Below, in pieces: positions 24,538 through 51,962 of a stretch of 64,000 bases of DNA. The translations under genes were made by a program, and so were the position numbers. The notes beneath the pieces are model-generated. The model saw nothing but the letters and a program-made list of their open reading frames with translations. It did no database searches and had not been told where the DNA came from. Position 1 is the first letter of the stretch, and every line of letters begins with the position of its first letter. The stretch is from Deltaproteobacteria bacterium (GTDB lineage Bacteria; Desulfobacterota; Binatia; UBA9968). The stretch is from positions 1-64,000 of the forward strand of contig VGTH01000008.1 in assembly GCA_016874755.1 (NCBI GenBank). The letters run 5' to 3'.

Positions 24538-24656
24538 GATTGGCTCGGATCAGCTAAACGGTAGTCGCTGGATATATAGAATTGGCGTTATCGTCAAGGG
24601 ATTGTATTGCTAGGGCGTGTCGTTTTATAAACCGAATGCAGGAGGGGTTTGGTAAT

Positions 24657-25067
24657 ATGGCAACGCGTTGGTTATTTAAAAGTGAGCCATCGGTCTATTC
24701 CTATCAACAATTGGTCAAAGACAAGAAGACCGTGTGGGACGGGGTGGCCAATTTTCTGGCGCTCAAGCATGTCAAGGACATAAAAAAGGGCGAGCTGATT
24801 TTTATTTATCACACCGGCGACGAAAAAGCCGCAGTGGGCGTGGCGCGCGCGTTAAGCGGTGCCTATCCCGATCCTGAAAAAGACGACCCGCGGTTGTTGG
24901 TGGTCGACGTCGAGCCGGTGCGGGCGCTGGCCAAGCCGGTGACATTGGCGCAAGTCAAAGCCCATCCGAAGTTGAAGAACTTTGATCTGGTCAAGAACTC
25001 ACGGCTGTCGATGATGAAAGTCACCGACGAGCAGTGGGAGATCATGGAAGAGATGGCCAAGAAATAA
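24657..25067 (+). CDS. EVE domain protein
   Basis: 136 residues, PUA-like fold. It begins TRWLFKSEPSVYSYQQLVKD with VWDGVANF, the standard EVE start, and has FIYHTGDEKAAVGVARAL and SRLSMMKVTDEQWEIM, all typical. EVE domains bind modified bases in RNA or DNA. The start at 24657 is supported by AGGAGGGG about 10 bases upstream; the longer frame from 24582 lacks a site. Confidence 0.9.
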   Translation: MATRWLFKSEPSVYSYQQLVKDKKTVWDGVANFLALKHVKDIKKGELIFIYHTGDEKAAVGVARALSGAYPDPEKDDPRLLVVDVEPVRALAKPVTLAQVKAHPKLKNFDLVKNSRLSMMKVTDEQWEIMEEMAKK

Positions 25068-25109: not shown

Positions 25110-26147
25110 ATGGCGGACGAACATAAGCACGGACACAAGGGCGAGCATGCACATGGGCATGACCATGGCCACGATCATGGACACTCCCAGTCCCATGGCG
25201 AGCATAAGCAGGATCACGAGCCTAAAGCGCATAGCCACGATCACGGCCATGAGCATGAGCATAGTCATGGCGAGCACTCGCATAGTCATGATGCGCATGG
25301 CCACGGCCATGGTCACGCGCATGGCCATTCGCACGATCACGGCCATGGACTCGATCATAAGTCGCGCTTTCACGATCCGGCGCACGCGCGAGACTTCGAT
25401 AGCCGCGGCTTGTCCGACATGCGCACCGACTTGACCGAGAAACTCATCGAAGCGTTGACGCTCAAGGGCGGCGAAGCGATTCTCGATTTGGCCACCGGCA
25501 CCGGCCGGGTGGCGCGGCCGCTGTCCAAGAAGCTCAAAGGCGGCCGCATTGTCGGCGTCGATGAAGCGATGGCGATGCTCGACGTCGGCCACCACCACAA
25601 AGATCCGATCGAGCATTATGAACAGTCCGCCGGCCAGGCGGACAAGCTGCCGTTCAAGACCGGCACCTTCGACCGTGCCTTTGTCTCGTTTAGCTTGCAC
25701 CATTTCGGCAATCCCGCCGGCGTAGTAGCCGAAGTGCTGCGGGTGTTGAAGCCGAGCGGGCGTTTCGTGGTCGTCGATCCGATCATCGAAGAAGCCAAGG
25801 ACGCGGTCGATAGCGCGTTGGAGGCCAAGATCAATCAGGTTTTCCGGCGCACCCATGGCGACGGTTTCAAATTTCACACCTCCAGCAGCATTCAACGCTT
25901 GCTCTCCAAGGCGGGCTACCGCGTGCCGCGGGTGAATGTGCTTTCCTATTCCTTCAATCAAGAAGGCATGGACGGCATCCCCACCGGGCGCCATTGGCTC
26001 GAGGCCGCGCTGGAATTAGAGAAGGAAGCGCCGGAGCTGGCCGAGCGCATGAAGAAAAACTATTTTACCTGGCATTCGCACGGCGATCATGCCCATGTGA
26101 AGGGCAGTTTTTCCTACGCCGTGATCACCGGAGTAAAGCCGGCGTAA
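25110..26147 (+). CDS. Class I methyltransferase with an extreme His-rich N-terminal region
   Basis: 345 residues. The first 83 residues contain 33 histidines in HGH, HDHGH and HSH units with Asp, Glu, Ser and Lys, a pattern typical of zinc, nickel or cobalt storage tails. From about residue 95 a Rossmann methyltransferase follows: AILDLATGTGRVARPL (SAM motif I, about 112-127), GGRIVGVDEAMAML (motif II), TFDRAFVSFSLHHFGN (motif IV) and VLRVLKPSGRFVVVDP. The end returns to His: YFTWHSHGDHAHVKG. The UbiE/ArsM-like core suggests a small-molecule substrate. Fusion of a metal buffer to a methyltransferase could mean metal-dependent activity or metalloid methylation (inference). The AhpD-like selenoprotein gene lies 92 bases downstream. 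Confidence 0.85.
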   Translation: MADEHKHGHKGEHAHGHDHGHDHGHSQSHGEHKQDHEPKAHSHDHGHEHEHSHGEHSHSHDAHGHGHGHAHGHSHDHGHGLDHKSRFHDPAHARDFDSRGLSDMRTDLTEKLIEALTLKGGEAILDLATGTGRVARPLSKKLKGGRIVGVDEAMAMLDVGHHHKDPIEHYEQSAGQADKLPFKTGTFDRAFVSFSLHHFGNPAGVVAEVLRVLKPSGRFVVVDPIIEEAKDAVDSALEAKINQVFRRTHGDGFKFHTSSSIQRLLSKAGYRVPRVNVLSYSFNQEGMDGIPTGRHWLEAALELEKEAPELAERMKKNYFTWHSHGDHAHVKGSFSYAVITGVKPA

Positions 26148-26239
26148 TTAGCCGTCTGGCGTTTAGCGTCTAGGGTTTCGCGTGCTTGGCCACAACGCTA
26201 GACCGCAGACGTCAAACGTAATCTGCCAACGGAGTAATT

Positions 26240-26500
26240 GTGAAGAAAGCCGACTTCCGAACCTTCTACAAAGATGCCCACGCGGTCGAGTGTCTAACTG
26301 AGCGGGAAAAAATGCTGATGGGGCTGGCCGTCGCAATCATGCGGTTGTGCGATCCCTGAGTGGAGCGCCGCCTTGCGGACGCAAGGAAAGCCGGCATGAC
26401 GGAGGAAGAATTGGACGCCGCCGTCGATGTCATCGCCGCCGTCGATGCCGGGGTGTTGCAGTCGCTCAACCAGCGCATCAAGGCGCGCGCCAAGGTCTGA
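26240..26500 (+). CDS. AhpD-like selenoprotein with CxxU motif (Sec at codon 40)
   Basis: Starts GTG at 26240 (GGAG 5 bases upstream), passes one TGA at 26357-26359 and ends at TGA 26498-26500, giving 86 residues. The translation fits the carboxymuconolactone decarboxylase/AhpD fold on both sides of the stop: LTEREKMLMGLAVAIMRLCDP before it, VERRLADARKAGMTEEEL and DAAVDVIAAVDAGVL after it. AhpD relatives have CxxC at this site (commonly CEPC); here it is C-D-P-U, so the TGA replaces the second catalytic Cys. CxxU versions of AhpD-like proteins are known from metagenomic selenoprotein surveys. A perfect SECIS-like hairpin follows. It probably acts as a thiol/selenol peroxidase or reductase partner. 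Standard callers see no gene here. Confidence 0.88.
26357..26386 (+). promoter_or_regulatory. SECIS hairpin after the UGA of the AhpD-like selenoprotein
   Basis: CCTTGC (26371-26376) pairs with GCAAGG (26381-26386) around the tetraloop GGAC. The loop starts 18 bases after the UGA and carries G at its first positions, matching the geometry expected for SelB recognition of bacterial SECIS elements such as fdhF. Confidence 0.75.
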
Positions 26501-26584
26501 CCATTTCTGGTATCGGTCCGGTGGAATTTTAAGGACGCGGTGGCGGCGCTGAACCTTCTGCCGGGCCCTGATGGCGCTTCGAGC

Positions 26585-26613
26585 TTGACAATACTTCGAA
26601 CGATCAGTTAGTG
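26585..26613 (+). promoter_or_regulatory. Promoter upstream of the iron-enzyme/bicupin operon
   Basis: A perfect TTGACA (26585-26590) is followed after 17 bases by TTAGTG, a weak -10. It lies 44 bases before the ATG at 26657, which has its own GGGAGGAG ribosome site. Confidence 0.4.
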
Positions 26614-26656
26614 CTAACAAATTGAAATTGAACGGCAAAATTCGGGAGGAGTTACT

Positions 26657-27364
26657 ATGAAACCGCAGGAATGGCGCCAAGCGCTGGGCGAATGCGTGCG
26701 CGATTTGTTTCGCTCGCCGGAGATGGAGCATTTCTATTCGATACCCATGAACATCAAACGGGCGCAGATTTACCTGTTGCAGCTGAGTCTCTACGTCCGG
26801 CAGCGGCGCAATTTTTGGCCGCAGGTCGCCGCCAATTGCAACGAGTTCGACGTGAAACAACGGATTATGGAACATGAGCATGAAGAGTTAGTCGAGGACG
26901 AGCATTCCAAACACGGTCATCTCGATTTGATTTTTCGCCAGGGCAAGGAGCTTGGATTGAGCGTCGACGACGTGCTCAACGCCGAGCCGCTGCCAACCAC
27001 CAAGGCGGCGATTTACGGTTGGTTCTGGATTGCGCGCAATCGCCCCTGGCAGGAAGCCATTGCGGCGTCGACCATCGCCGAGTGGACCAACGATGATCGC
27101 TTGCTTGGCGATTTGGGCGGCGCCAATTGTAGCCGGCTCTACAAGATCTGGTCGCGCGATCTGAAATTCACCGACAAGCAAATGCCCAACTTTACCGCGC
27201 ACAGCAAAGCCGATGTGAAGCACTCCGATATGTTCATCGACGTGTTGGAAAGATATGTCGAGCCGGGGCGGGAAAAAGACGTGCTCCATACGGCGAAGGA
27301 ATCGATGGATTTGCACCGCGCTTACTTTGGCGGCATGGCGCATGCGATGGAGAAAACTGCGTAA
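26657..27364 (+). CDS. Haem-oxygenase-like diiron/iron-containing redox enzyme
   Basis: 235-residue all-helical protein of the TENA/PqqC/HDO type. Candidate metal ligands lie in the central helix (MEHEHEELVEDEHSKHG) and in the later helix HSKADVKHSDMF. The N-terminal SIPMNIKRAQIYLLQ is also usual for the family. Members oxidise organic substrates with O2 or act as diiron desaturases, often in biosynthetic or catabolic clusters. It heads a run of four same-strand genes with short gaps (bicupin, decarboxylase-like protein, UbiD), suggesting a shared pathway on an aromatic acid. Confidence 0.75.
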   Translation: MKPQEWRQALGECVRDLFRSPEMEHFYSIPMNIKRAQIYLLQLSLYVRQRRNFWPQVAANCNEFDVKQRIMEHEHEELVEDEHSKHGHLDLIFRQGKELGLSVDDVLNAEPLPTTKAAIYGWFWIARNRPWQEAIAASTIAEWTNDDRLLGDLGGANCSRLYKIWSRDLKFTDKQMPNFTAHSKADVKHSDMFIDVLERYVEPGREKDVLHTAKESMDLHRAYFGGMAHAMEKTA

Positions 27365-27384: not shown

Positions 27385-28383
27385 ATGAAGCTTGAAGAGC
27401 TTGACAGCCAGCTTGAGAAGAATCAACTCTCGGGCTTTTGGCGCACGCGCGTGCCGGGGCACGCGTCCGAGGCGCCCTACCTATGGAAATGGGAGCCGCT
27501 GCTCGACGGTTTGCTCAAGGCGAGTGAGACCATCGGCATCGATCAAGCGGAGCGGCGCGCGATTCGCTTGGTGAGCCCGCATTTGCCGATCAAATCGACC
27601 TCGCACACGCTGCAAATTACGTTTTCCATCGTCAACCCCGGCGAAGTGGCCAAAGCGCACCGACACAACATGGCGGCGATTCGCTTCGTCGTCCAAGGCA
27701 AAGGCGCCTATACCGCGGTGGACGGCGAAAAGTTTTTCATGGAAGAGGGCGATCTGATCTTGACGCCCAATTGGACTTGGCACGACCATCACAACGAATC
27801 ACAAGATCCGATCATCTGGCTCGATGGCCTCGACGGACCGCTGATTCAGTCGTTGAACGTGTTGTTTTTCGAGGATGCGGAAAAGCCCGAGCAGGAGATT
27901 ACGCGCCAGACCGGCGAATCTTTGAGCCGCATGGGTTTTGCGCGCACGACTAAACCGAACGAATCGTTCAAGCGCGGCACGCCGTTTCGCTACTCATTCG
28001 TAGACACTTACAAGGCGCTGAAGGCGATGACCGAGGCCGATCGCGATCCCTACGACGGGATTTTGCTGCGCTACATCAATCCCGCGACCGGCGGCTATAC
28101 CTACCCGACCATGTCGTGCGAAATTCAAATGCTCAACGCGAAGGATGTCACCAAGCTCCATCGCCACACGAGCACGGCGCTTTATCACGTCAACAAAGGT
28201 CAGGGCCGCACCAGGGTCGGCGAGGGCTATCTTGAATGGAAAAAGGGCGATTCCTTCGTGGTCCCCCTTTGGCAGTGGCACGCTCATGAAAACTTGGGCA
28301 GCGACGAGGCCATTCTTTTTTCGATGAACGATCGCCCGGTGATGGAAGCGCTGCAGCTCTATCGCGAAGAATCGGCCAGCTGA
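27385..28383 (+). CDS. Gentisate 1,2-dioxygenase-like bicupin
   Basis: 332 residues with two cupin domains. The first carries the iron-site motif AHRHNMAAIRFVVQGKGAYT and a second-motif TPNWTWHDHHNES (about 131-143). The second has KLHRHTSTALYHVNKGQG and PLWQWHAHENL. Gentisate and 1-hydroxy-2-naphthoate dioxygenases share this layout and cleave the ring between C1 and C2 using Fe2+ and O2. Exact substrate unknown. It lies 20 bases after the iron-enzyme gene. Confidence 0.82.
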   Translation: MKLEELDSQLEKNQLSGFWRTRVPGHASEAPYLWKWEPLLDGLLKASETIGIDQAERRAIRLVSPHLPIKSTSHTLQITFSIVNPGEVAKAHRHNMAAIRFVVQGKGAYTAVDGEKFFMEEGDLILTPNWTWHDHHNESQDPIIWLDGLDGPLIQSLNVLFFEDAEKPEQEITRQTGESLSRMGFARTTKPNESFKRGTPFRYSFVDTYKALKAMTEADRDPYDGILLRYINPATGGYTYPTMSCEIQMLNAKDVTKLHRHTSTALYHVNKGQGRTRVGEGYLEWKKGDSFVVPLWQWHAHENLGSDEAILFSMNDRPVMEALQLYREESAS

Positions 28384-28425
28384 GAACTTTTCACCTCTCA
28401 CACGGAGAGGTCAGAGTAAACCCCT

Positions 28426-29430
28426 ATGGCTTCTCCCATTCACGTTCGGCTCGCGAGCCGCGCCTACGACGGTGTTTTGCCGATCCTGCGCGGCCAGATG
28501 AAAATTCCCGGGTTCGAATTTGACGTCACCGAAACCGAGGACGTGCCCGGCATGTTCGCCGGCATGTTCAAAGGACAGTACGATATTTCGGAGATGTCGC
28601 TCGGCGAATTGATTTATTATACCTCGCGCGGCAAGGCGGATTTTGTCGCGATCCCGGTCTTTCCCTCGCGCATGTTTCGCCACGGCTTTATCTTCACGCG
28701 CAAGGCTTCGAACATCAGAACCCCAAGCGATCTGAGCGGCAAGAAAATCGGCTTTCTTCGTTGGGTGCAAACCGCGGCGATCTGGATGCGCGGCATGTTG
28801 ATCGACGAGTACGGTGTGTCGGCGAAAAATTCCGAATGGTATGTCGCTTCGATTCATCACTGGGACGATCACGATCCCGGCGCGACGGTCGAGCCGCGCG
28901 ACGGTTCGGTGATCCGCATGATTGAAAACAGCGGCAAGAACACTTCCGAGCGCGCTTGCAAGGCTATTTTCGATGGCCAGGTCGATGCGCTGGGCGTGAC
29001 CGAGTCGCAATTTGCCACACTGCTCGCCAACGACACCGTCAAGAAGTTGTTTGAGAACTCTCGTGAAGTCGAAGCCAGCTATTTTCGCAAGACCAAGATC
29101 TTGCCGATCATGCACGTGCTGGCGATGCAAAAATCGCTGGCGGAAAAACATCCGGAGCTGCCGGCGCAGCTGTTTCGTCTCTACGTCGAAGCCAAAAGCT
29201 GGGGCCAGCGCTGGCGGCGGGCGGTTCCCAGCCTGGCCGAGGCTTGGCCCAATCCGTACATCGAGGCGGAACAAGAAATTTTTCAGTGCGATCCCTGGGC
29301 GTACGGCTTGGAAGCCAATCGCCACGTGTTGAATCGCTTTTTCGCCTATTGCGATGCCCAGGGCGTGACCGCGAGAACCACGGCCCCTGAAGAAATCTTT
29401 CATGGCAGCACAGTCAAGCTCAGCGAATAG
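28426..29430 (+). CDS. 4,5-dihydroxyphthalate decarboxylase-like / periplasmic-binding-fold protein
   Basis: 334 residues, no signal peptide. It starts HVRLASRAYDGVLPILRGQM and has FEFDVTETEDVPGMFAGMF, YDISEMSLGELI and LSGKKIGFLRWVQTAAIW. This is the family annotated as 4,5-dihydroxyphthalate decarboxylase (Pht5), which shares the type-2 periplasmic binding fold. Absence of a secretion signal favours a cytoplasmic enzyme over a transport receptor. It lies between the bicupin and UbiD genes. Confidence 0.72.
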   Translation: MASPIHVRLASRAYDGVLPILRGQMKIPGFEFDVTETEDVPGMFAGMFKGQYDISEMSLGELIYYTSRGKADFVAIPVFPSRMFRHGFIFTRKASNIRTPSDLSGKKIGFLRWVQTAAIWMRGMLIDEYGVSAKNSEWYVASIHHWDDHDPGATVEPRDGSVIRMIENSGKNTSERACKAIFDGQVDALGVTESQFATLLANDTVKKLFENSREVEASYFRKTKILPIMHVLAMQKSLAEKHPELPAQLFRLYVEAKSWGQRWRRAVPSLAEAWPNPYIEAEQEIFQCDPWAYGLEANRHVLNRFFAYCDAQGVTARTTAPEEIFHGSTVKLSE

Positions 29431-29446
29431 CAATAAGGAGTCCCCT

Positions 29447-30940
29447 ATGGCGACGGCAGCGGCGACCCAGGCCCCATCCAGCTCAGTGTGCGATCTGCGC
29501 GATTGGCTCAAAGACGTCAAGCGCCTCGAACAGTTGGAGCAAATTTCCGGCGCGCATTGGAATCTCGAGATCGGCGCGCTCACGGAAATTATTCTTGAAC
29601 GGCTGTCGACACCGCCAGCGGTGGTCTTTGACAACGTGCCGGGCTTCGATCCTGGCCGGCGCGTCCTGGTCAACATGCTGGAGACTCTGGAGCGCACGGC
29701 GCTGACGCTTAACTTGCCGCTCGATCTCAAAATCATTCCGCTGATCGACGCCCTGCGCGCCAAACTGCGCGCCATGCAGCCGGTCAAAGCCAACGTGGTC
29801 AAGACCGGGCCCATATTTGAAAATGTCGAGCGCGGCGATCAGATCGACCTAACCAAATTTCCCGTGCCGTTCTGGCACAAAGGCGACGGCGGCCGCTATC
29901 TCGGTACCGCTCACCTGGTGGTCACCCGCGATCCCGAAACCGATGTGGAAAACGTCGGCTGCTATCGCGTGATGCTGCAGGATAAGGACAAAGTCGGTTT
30001 GTACATATCGCCGGGCAAGCACGGCAAGATGCATTACGAAAAGGCCATGAAGGCGGGCAAGACTTTCCCAGTGGCGATGGCTTTCGGCCAGCATCCACTG
30101 CTTTATGTTGCGTCATCGCAGGCCGTGCCGTTTGGCGTCAACGAGTACGACTGGGCCGGCGGCTTGATTGGCCAACCCATTGACGTGATCGAAGGGCCTA
30201 TCACCGGGCTGCATTTTCCTGCCAACTCGGAGATTGTCATCGAGGGCGAGATCGTGCCGGGGGAAACGATGCAAGAAGGGCCCTTCGGTGAGTGGCCGGG
30301 CTATTACGCCAGCGCCAACCGGCCTGAGCCGTTTGTGCGCGTCAAGGCGCTCTACTATCGCAACGAGCCGATCATCTGCGGCGCTGCGCCGTTTAAGCCG
30401 ACGATACACGGCATGTACCGCTCCTGCTTGCGCGCGGCGACGGTTTGGAACGGCATGGAGCAAGCCGGCGTGCCCGACATCAAAGGCGTTTATCTGCCGC
30501 CGCCGGCGCAACGCTTCATGATCGTGGTGGCGATCAAGCAGCGCTACCCCGGGCACGCCAAACAGGCGGCGTTGGTGGCGTGCCAGTGTCATGCCGGGGC
30601 CTATCTCGGTCGCTATGTGGTTGTCGTCGACGACGATATCGACATCACCGATACCAACGAGGTCCTGTGGGCGATCTGCACCCGGACGGATCCGGCCCTT
30701 CACATGGACCTGCTGCGTCGCACCTGGAGCGGCCCGCTCGACCCCATTATCCCTCCAGGCCAAAAGGGCCTTAACTCGCGCATGATCATCGAAGCCGTGC
30801 GGCCTTGGGAATGGCGCGATAAGTTCCCGGCCACCAGCGCGATCACCGATGAGACCCGCCGGGAGTATTCGACCAAATGGGCCAAGCAGCTTGCGAATGT
30901 CCAGGCGCGCCAGGCCCAGGCTCGTTTCCGCCAAGACTAG
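29447..30940 (+). CDS. UbiD family (de)carboxylase
   Basis: 497 residues. The start at 29447 has AAGGAG 10 bases upstream; the frame opens earlier at 29402 inside the preceding gene. UbiD blocks seen are LTKFPVPFWHKGDGGRYLGT (prFMN phosphate region), YRVMLQDKDKVGLYISPGKH, then EIVIEGEIVPGETMQEGPFGEWPGYY holding the conserved Glu residues, and VVVVDDDIDITDTNEVLWAI. UbiD enzymes use prenylated FMN (made by UbiX, not in this window) to add or remove CO2 on aromatic or enoic acids. Together with the upstream ring dioxygenase it points to aromatic acid catabolism. Confidence 0.92.
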   Translation: MATAAATQAPSSSVCDLRDWLKDVKRLEQLEQISGAHWNLEIGALTEIILERLSTPPAVVFDNVPGFDPGRRVLVNMLETLERTALTLNLPLDLKIIPLIDALRAKLRAMQPVKANVVKTGPIFENVERGDQIDLTKFPVPFWHKGDGGRYLGTAHLVVTRDPETDVENVGCYRVMLQDKDKVGLYISPGKHGKMHYEKAMKAGKTFPVAMAFGQHPLLYVASSQAVPFGVNEYDWAGGLIGQPIDVIEGPITGLHFPANSEIVIEGEIVPGETMQEGPFGEWPGYYASANRPEPFVRVKALYYRNEPIICGAAPFKPTIHGMYRSCLRAATVWNGMEQAGVPDIKGVYLPPPAQRFMIVVAIKQRYPGHAKQAALVACQCHAGAYLGRYVVVVDDDIDITDTNEVLWAICTRTDPALHMDLLRRTWSGPLDPIIPPGQKGLNSRMIIEAVRPWEWRDKFPATSAITDETRREYSTKWAKQLANVQARQAQARFRQD

Positions 30941-51886: not shown

Positions 51887-51962
51887 TGGAGGCGGCGAGC
51901 GGATTCGAACCGCTGCATCGAGGTTTTGCAGACCTCTCCCTTAACCACTTGGGTACGCCGCC
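51887..51962 (-). tRNA. tRNA-Cys (GCA), CCA encoded
   Basis: On the minus strand the acceptor stem GGCGGCG pairs with CGCCGCC. The D arm is CCCAAGTGGTTAAGGG, the anticodon arm GAGGT-CTGCAAA-ACCTC gives anticodon GCA, and the T arm is AGCGG-TTCGAAT-CCGCT. The discriminator is U73, as expected for cysteine, and the 3' CCA is in the DNA. It lies between grxC and the ferredoxin-fusion gene, opposite strand. Confidence 0.97.

Follow-up and report, generated by a model that had tools for sequence, protein, structure and literature searches.

An easily missed gene for a CMD/AhpD-fold selenoprotein conserved within one order of Binatia

We identified an easily missed selenoprotein gene, and not a gene disrupted by a nonsense mutation, in a 64,000-nucleotide stretch of DNA from a Binatia genome (the whole stretch analysed, hereafter the window). 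Judged by its sequence and the gene content of its genome, the gene product is very probably a bacterial selenoprotein with the CMD/AhpD fold, its selenocysteine (Sec) being encoded by an in-frame TGA (Table 1). The finding adds a well-supported selenoprotein subfamily to an uncultured bacterial lineage, and provides an example of a gene that is lost by plain ORF calling.

Table 1. Coordinates of the selenoprotein gene, its elements and its upstream neighbours in the window.
Feature	Position	Strand	Remarks
EVE-domain gene, neighbour	24657..25067	+	Pfam EVE E 3.2e-39 on the longer ORF 24582-25067
SAM methyltransferase gene (UbiE-like), neighbour	25110..26147	+	His-rich N-terminus, Cys-free; Pfam Methyltransf_11 E 1.3e-17
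CMD/AhpD-fold selenoprotein gene (very probable)	26240..26500	+	86 codons plus stop, GTG start, Sec codon 40
Sec codon TGA	26357..26359	+	Codon 40, last position of the C37-D-P-U40 redox motif
Invariant 20-nt block with SECIS-like hairpin	26369..26388	+	Identical in 20/20 orthologous genes

Reading the internal TGA as Sec makes the gene one continuous frame, with GGAG preceding its start in the window sequence and a terminal TGA as codon 87 (26498-26500); a table 11 reading cuts it into 39 and 46 codons. The Sec-read protein belongs to the Pfam CMD family (PF02627; E 3.4e-10, 40.2 bits against a cut-off of 23), in agreement with the sequence-only reading of this DNA, which had described a CMD/AhpD frame whose sole interruption is a TGA in place of the second CxxC cysteine. 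The same reading had stated that ORF calling loses the gene, and this was also the case. Among ORFs of at least 60 aa, none lies in the gene's own frame across its length; another plus-strand frame holds an overlapping ORF of 61 aa (26347-26532), and two ORFs run antisense across the gene (26294-26881, 195 aa; 26266-26493, 75 aa). Plain ORF calling therefore misses the gene or calls it wrongly.

We found 20 orthologous genes in 19 of the 35 genomes of the order (E<=1e-10). All 20 have a single in-frame TGA at codon 40, and none has Cys there; C-x-P precedes the TGA in every gene, and Cys37, Pro39, Arg43 and Arg44 are invariant. Two of the genes are from one genome (G403, assembled as one contig; L084 and L085), where they lie ~20 kb apart with nfo-like and EVE genes before each. 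Across the class, the gene was present in 19 of 148 genomes (E<=1e-6), all from this one order, and the search returned one further weak match, in G419, with 37% identity and no in-frame stop. In a sample of the phylum, 99 of 395 genomes had a CMD match (E<=0.001); by hand count, 24 rows of this table have one internal TGA, two have an internal TAA (G215:C292:9694-9903 and G140:C177:12261-12461), and the rest are stop-free. We collected 30 of these phylum loci, 2 from this order and 28 distant. Conservation of Cys or Sec at the TGA column, which the sequence-only reading had put forward as a check, extended beyond the order: 19 of the 28 distant relatives could be read in frame, and the second position of their motif is TGA in 8 and Cys in 11. 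A tree of 40 Sec/Cys CMD proteins, in which branches are long, would require three Sec-Cys changes, a single origin also being possible, and its Binatia clade includes, at weak support, a Cys row with 3.71 changes per column.

Codons on both sides of the TGA have the pattern of coding sequence. Mean difference rates at codon positions 1, 2 and 3 were 0.121, 0.091 and 0.496 before the TGA, and 0.168, 0.052 and 0.518 after it (hairpin codons excluded); the far greater difference at third positions indicates that the part after the TGA is translated and under selection. A CxxC gene hit by a nonsense mutation or a sequencing error, or a pseudogene in decay, would by itself account for a single stop in an otherwise open frame, and could appeal to a genome of the order that has the TGA form without detected Sec machinery (G198, described below) and to the two distant matches with TAA, from which it follows that internal stops in CMD matches are not always Sec; however, the TGA is common to 20/20 orthologous genes in 19 genomes, the coding pattern is kept in the codons past it and even the synonymous sites of the hairpin block do not vary, and we rejected this explanation as extremely improbable on the basis of TGA conservation and coding pattern.

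The sequence-only reading had reported a 6-bp hairpin with a GGAC loop 12 bases past the TGA, and we found it as described. The hairpin, CCTTGC-GGAC-GCAAGG at 26371-26386, pairs 26371-26376 with 26381-26386 around the loop at 26377-26380; its six pairs start at the 12th base past the TGA, and 17 nt separate the TGA from the loop. The bSECIS model given in a review (PMC13188914) specifies a loop of 3-9 nt, an upper stem of 4-16 bp, a G within the first two loop positions and a UGA-loop spacing of 16-37 nt, together with an MFE of -7.5 or lower. The window hairpin lies within all four constraints, with a 4-nt loop, a 6-bp stem, GG and 17 nt, and likewise within the MFE limit. Folded alone, the 20-nt block had a free energy of -9.0 kcal/mol (z -2.84), and 1 of 200 shuffles was equally stable. 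Wider folds around the TGA were not unusually stable, with z-scores of -1.28 for a 44-nt segment (MFE -15.1 kcal/mol), -0.70 for 39 nt and +0.29 for 71 nt; it is the conservation of the hairpin block, not the stability of a wide segment, that exceeds chance. Across the 20 Binatia orthologues, the hairpin shows no variation at all, synonymous sites included. Of the 7 degenerate codons with an invariant amino acid at codons 44-50, 6 are spelled identically throughout the 20 genes; outside this stretch the proportion is 1 of 36 (Fisher p 7.9e-6, which is indicative only, the sequences being related). The 20-nt block occurs in 45 of the 109 collected loci, which are repeat copies of the same 20 genes.

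A hairpin is also present at the same place in eight distant TGA-bearing CMD genes (L024, L029, L030, L032, L035, L036, L048 and L049), the only distant TGA rows with locus sequence; the pairing scheme was named after inspecting them. In these eight genes, 91.1% of 56 cells pair and both sides change in four of seven pairs, with a covariation score of 0.372. None of 500 shuffles reached the pairing, both-sides or covariation values, and 119 of 500 reached the "further pair types" measure; these counts are not probabilities, because the eight genes share ancestry. When the partner was slid by 1-3 columns, at most 64.3% of cells paired and at most two pairs changed on both sides, and a slide of -1 gave four both-sides cells, as many as the structure itself. 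The poorest fit to the hairpin is L030, whose open frame scores 231 bits against the C-terminal portion of the ArsM/AhpD selenoprotein model (the cut-off of 510 applies to the whole protein).

The search for selA, selB, selC and selD that had been proposed from the sequence alone found all four, at scores that exceed their curated cut-offs, in the window's genome (G000; 5,560,410 bases in 101 contigs, 99.55% complete). The sequence-only reading had named two observations as refuting, a genome lacking this machinery and a TGA column with no Cys/Sec conservation in relatives, and neither was borne out. Profile matches were 600.3 bits for selA, 411.4 bits for selB and 381.7 bits for selD, which are clustered at C16:6375-10684, and tRNA-Sec scored 75.9 bits and was called as tRNA-SeC with anticodon tca by ARAGORN. 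The selD gene (G000:C16:6375-7301, L018) has one in-frame TGA of its own, at what we take to be the usual Sec/Cys site of SelD, suggesting that SelD is probably a second selenoprotein of this genome. For formate dehydrogenase alpha (TIGR01591), the sole over-cut-off match in G000 is without an in-frame stop.

Across the order, selA was over its cut-off in 32 of 35 genomes and selB was found in 29 of 35 (E<=1e-70). Among the 19 carriers of the CMD gene, selA is found in 18 and selB in 17; selB is also present in 12 of the 16 genomes without the gene, indicating that the CMD gene and the Sec system are not tightly coupled. One genome that is listed as 100% complete, G198, has the TGA gene and an intact hairpin, but neither selA nor selB was found over its cut-off, and tRNA-Sec was not found among the 150 of 473 candidates scored; the best tRNA-Sec match, at 45.8 bits (cut-off 47), is a tRNA-Ser according to ARAGORN. 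The gene copy in this genome (L022, L088) is near a contig end, with 21 bases upstream, and the exception possibly reflects an assembly gap or a mis-binned contig. In G395, selA and tRNA-Sec are present, and selB was not found at E<=1e-70.

An AlphaFold2 model built from seven orthologues is all-helical (mean pLDDT 83.6, pTM 0.62), and the predicted fold is one domain spanning the TGA position. All five Foldseek matches at E<=0.001 were chains of 3bey (36% identity), with 1vke, 7y4r (RclX) and 1p8c at E 0.0037 or worse, and a profile search of structures gave two matches, 3bey (4.2e-10) and 7y4r (2.6e-4). The closest solved structure by both profile and fold is therefore 3bey, the protein O27018 of Methanobacterium thermoautotrophicum, which has Cys where the window protein has Sec, and His where the window protein has Arg. 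Classical AhpD has a catalytic His four residues after the motif Cys. At the fourth residue past Sec, 20/20 orthologues have Arg, and AhpD-type chemistry may differ in this group. The window protein scored below the cut-offs of the models for classical AhpD (TIGR00777; 16.3 bits against 191.95) and the AhpD core domain (TIGR00778; 24.1 bits against 27.8), and below that of TIGR04169 (36.7 bits against 120).

We also considered whether the UGA is suppressed to another amino acid, or each half is translated as a peptide of its own. This is scarcely credible, given that the TGA takes the place of the second cysteine in a CxxC motif, a position at which 11 of 19 distant relatives have Cys, that the genome has the Sec machinery, that hairpin pairs change on both sides in distant relatives, and that one predicted domain extends across the TGA. 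For the selenoprotein reading, SelB with Sec-tRNA(Sec) would bind the hairpin 12 bases past the UGA, and Sec would be inserted at codon 40; the parts for this were found here, and from their known biology we infer that insertion takes place in vivo.

Upstream DNA is available for 19 of the 20 loci, in which neighbours were identified by tblastn, with some absences due to contig ends. A homologue of the EVE gene is upstream of the CMD gene in 18 of the 19 loci, and was not found in G411. Homologues of the window's nfo-like gene, presumably nfo, endonuclease IV, are present in 11 of 19 loci, and DUF885 in 6 of 19. The methyltransferase has an upstream homologue in 10 of 19 loci, none of which belongs to family f109; it was found in 0 of the 9 f109 loci within the DNA examined, indicating that it is not an obligate neighbour. 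In the window, the methyltransferase and CMD genes possibly share a transcription unit; in G418, ~1 kb separates the end of the methyltransferase gene from the CMD gene. The gap between the two genes in the window (26148-26232) folds into a long, imperfectly paired hairpin (-31.7 kcal/mol, z -2.65; 1 of 200 shuffles was as stable), a 17-base piece of which has a single occurrence in the window when up to 3 mismatches are allowed. Scans for promoters and terminators, which covered the sigma-70 type of promoter alone, found no more than in shuffles.

The N-terminus of the window methyltransferase has 33 His in 86 residues, and those of G419, G424 and G395 have 0-3 His in 19-21 residues; the window enzyme has no Cys, and the others have 0-4. 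These figures cover nine of the ten methyltransferases (G410 was excluded for a wrong ORF call), with starts taken from a simple ORF finder. We rejected a reading of the neighbour as an ArsM-type arsenite methyltransferase, as it scored far under the cut-offs of the ArsM models and lacks Cys; ArsM is Cys-dependent, unlike the Cys-free window enzyme. The position of the selenoprotein gene after a His-rich methyltransferase had been called unusual in the sequence-only reading. This did not hold up, since a methyltransferase is upstream in 10 of 19 loci and methyltransferase-AhpD fusion selenoproteins have been catalogued (PMC13188914).

The four genes downstream of the CMD gene in the window were not found beside it in the other 19 loci, several of whose contigs end soon; the exception is a 31% match to the substrate-binding protein, placed upstream in L080. 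Downstream genes at 27385-30940 show similarity to a UbiD decarboxylase, a substrate-binding protein and, at a score under the cut-off, a gentisate-type dioxygenase, and by these resemblances may act in aromatic compound metabolism. The window's only Rfam match at gathering thresholds is a tRNA gene (51890-51962, minus strand).

The C37-x-x-U40 pair of the predicted 86-residue protein would cycle between selenol/thiol and selenenylsulfide forms, and the protein would most likely act as a small selenol-based disulfide or peroxide reductase. It might reduce a substrate, product or metal site of a neighbouring enzyme, or shield that enzyme from oxidation. A role of this kind appears likeliest because the gene adjoins methyltransferase and EVE genes, and because selenoproteins in which a methyltransferase is fused to an AhpD-like domain exist; by analogy with these fusions, the protein perhaps serves the neighbouring methyltransferase. 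We hold this functional account as a whole tentatively, at somewhat less than an even chance. The EVE protein might instead be the true partner, in a nucleic-acid or stress-response setting, an alternative that bears on the functional part only. EVE is upstream in 18/19 loci, against 10/19 for the methyltransferase, an nfo-like homologue is present in 11/19, and EVE is a modified-base-binding domain (PMC7641849), all of which favour it; however, gene order inside one bacterial order can persist without a functional link, and the main text of PMC7641849 has no occurrence of "seleno" or "AhpD". We consider an EVE partnership unlikely, albeit a serious contender. The occurrence of methyltransferase and AhpD-like proteins as separate genes offers a testable handle on the role of the fused selenoproteins. 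We further suggest, as a speculation that is more probably wrong than right, that this order-specific, Sec-only CMD subfamily works together with its methyltransferase and EVE neighbours as the separate-gene counterpart of MduS-type fusions, in an undescribed redox pathway that handles metals or metalloids or is related to nucleic acids.

In the open-licence literature, nothing on this Binatia CMD subfamily was among the matches listed, and a search on Binatota and selenocysteine listed one paper, about sponge methane cycling. The best NCBIfam matches of the window protein were to the AhpD-like parts of MduS (NF045649; 38.0 bits) and ArsM_AhpD_UU (NF041537; 37.3 bits), which likewise have an AhpD-like domain with a CxxU motif (PMC13188914). 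In both, the domain is fused to a SAM methyltransferase, whereas in the window the two are separate genes. The scores are far under the cut-offs of these models (380 and 510, respectively), and point to domain relatedness and not to membership. The GSU3128 family (seleno)protein (NF041047), a distant AhpD homologue, also has CxxU (PMC13188914), and the window protein scored 27.7 bits against its cut-off of 110, outside that family too.

CxxU selenoproteins of the CMD/AhpD-like kind are already known, having been in print since 2005: the Sargasso Sea survey includes four CMD domain-containing sequences (PMC1088965), the GOS survey 70 sequences of AhpD-like 2 selenoproteins (PMC2398784), and CMD-domain CxxU selenoproteins also appear in PMC13188914. 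The sequence-only reading had likewise described such proteins as known from metagenomes. As described in these surveys, the proteins resemble that of the window in having PF02627, a CxxU motif and a SECIS directly past the UGA. The clade of the window gene, which we compared with the survey entries by description, differs from them in having been found in one order of one class only, in having Sec in 20/20 genes, and in its EVE and methyltransferase neighbours; it forms a branch specific to this lineage, in a gene neighbourhood that is conserved.
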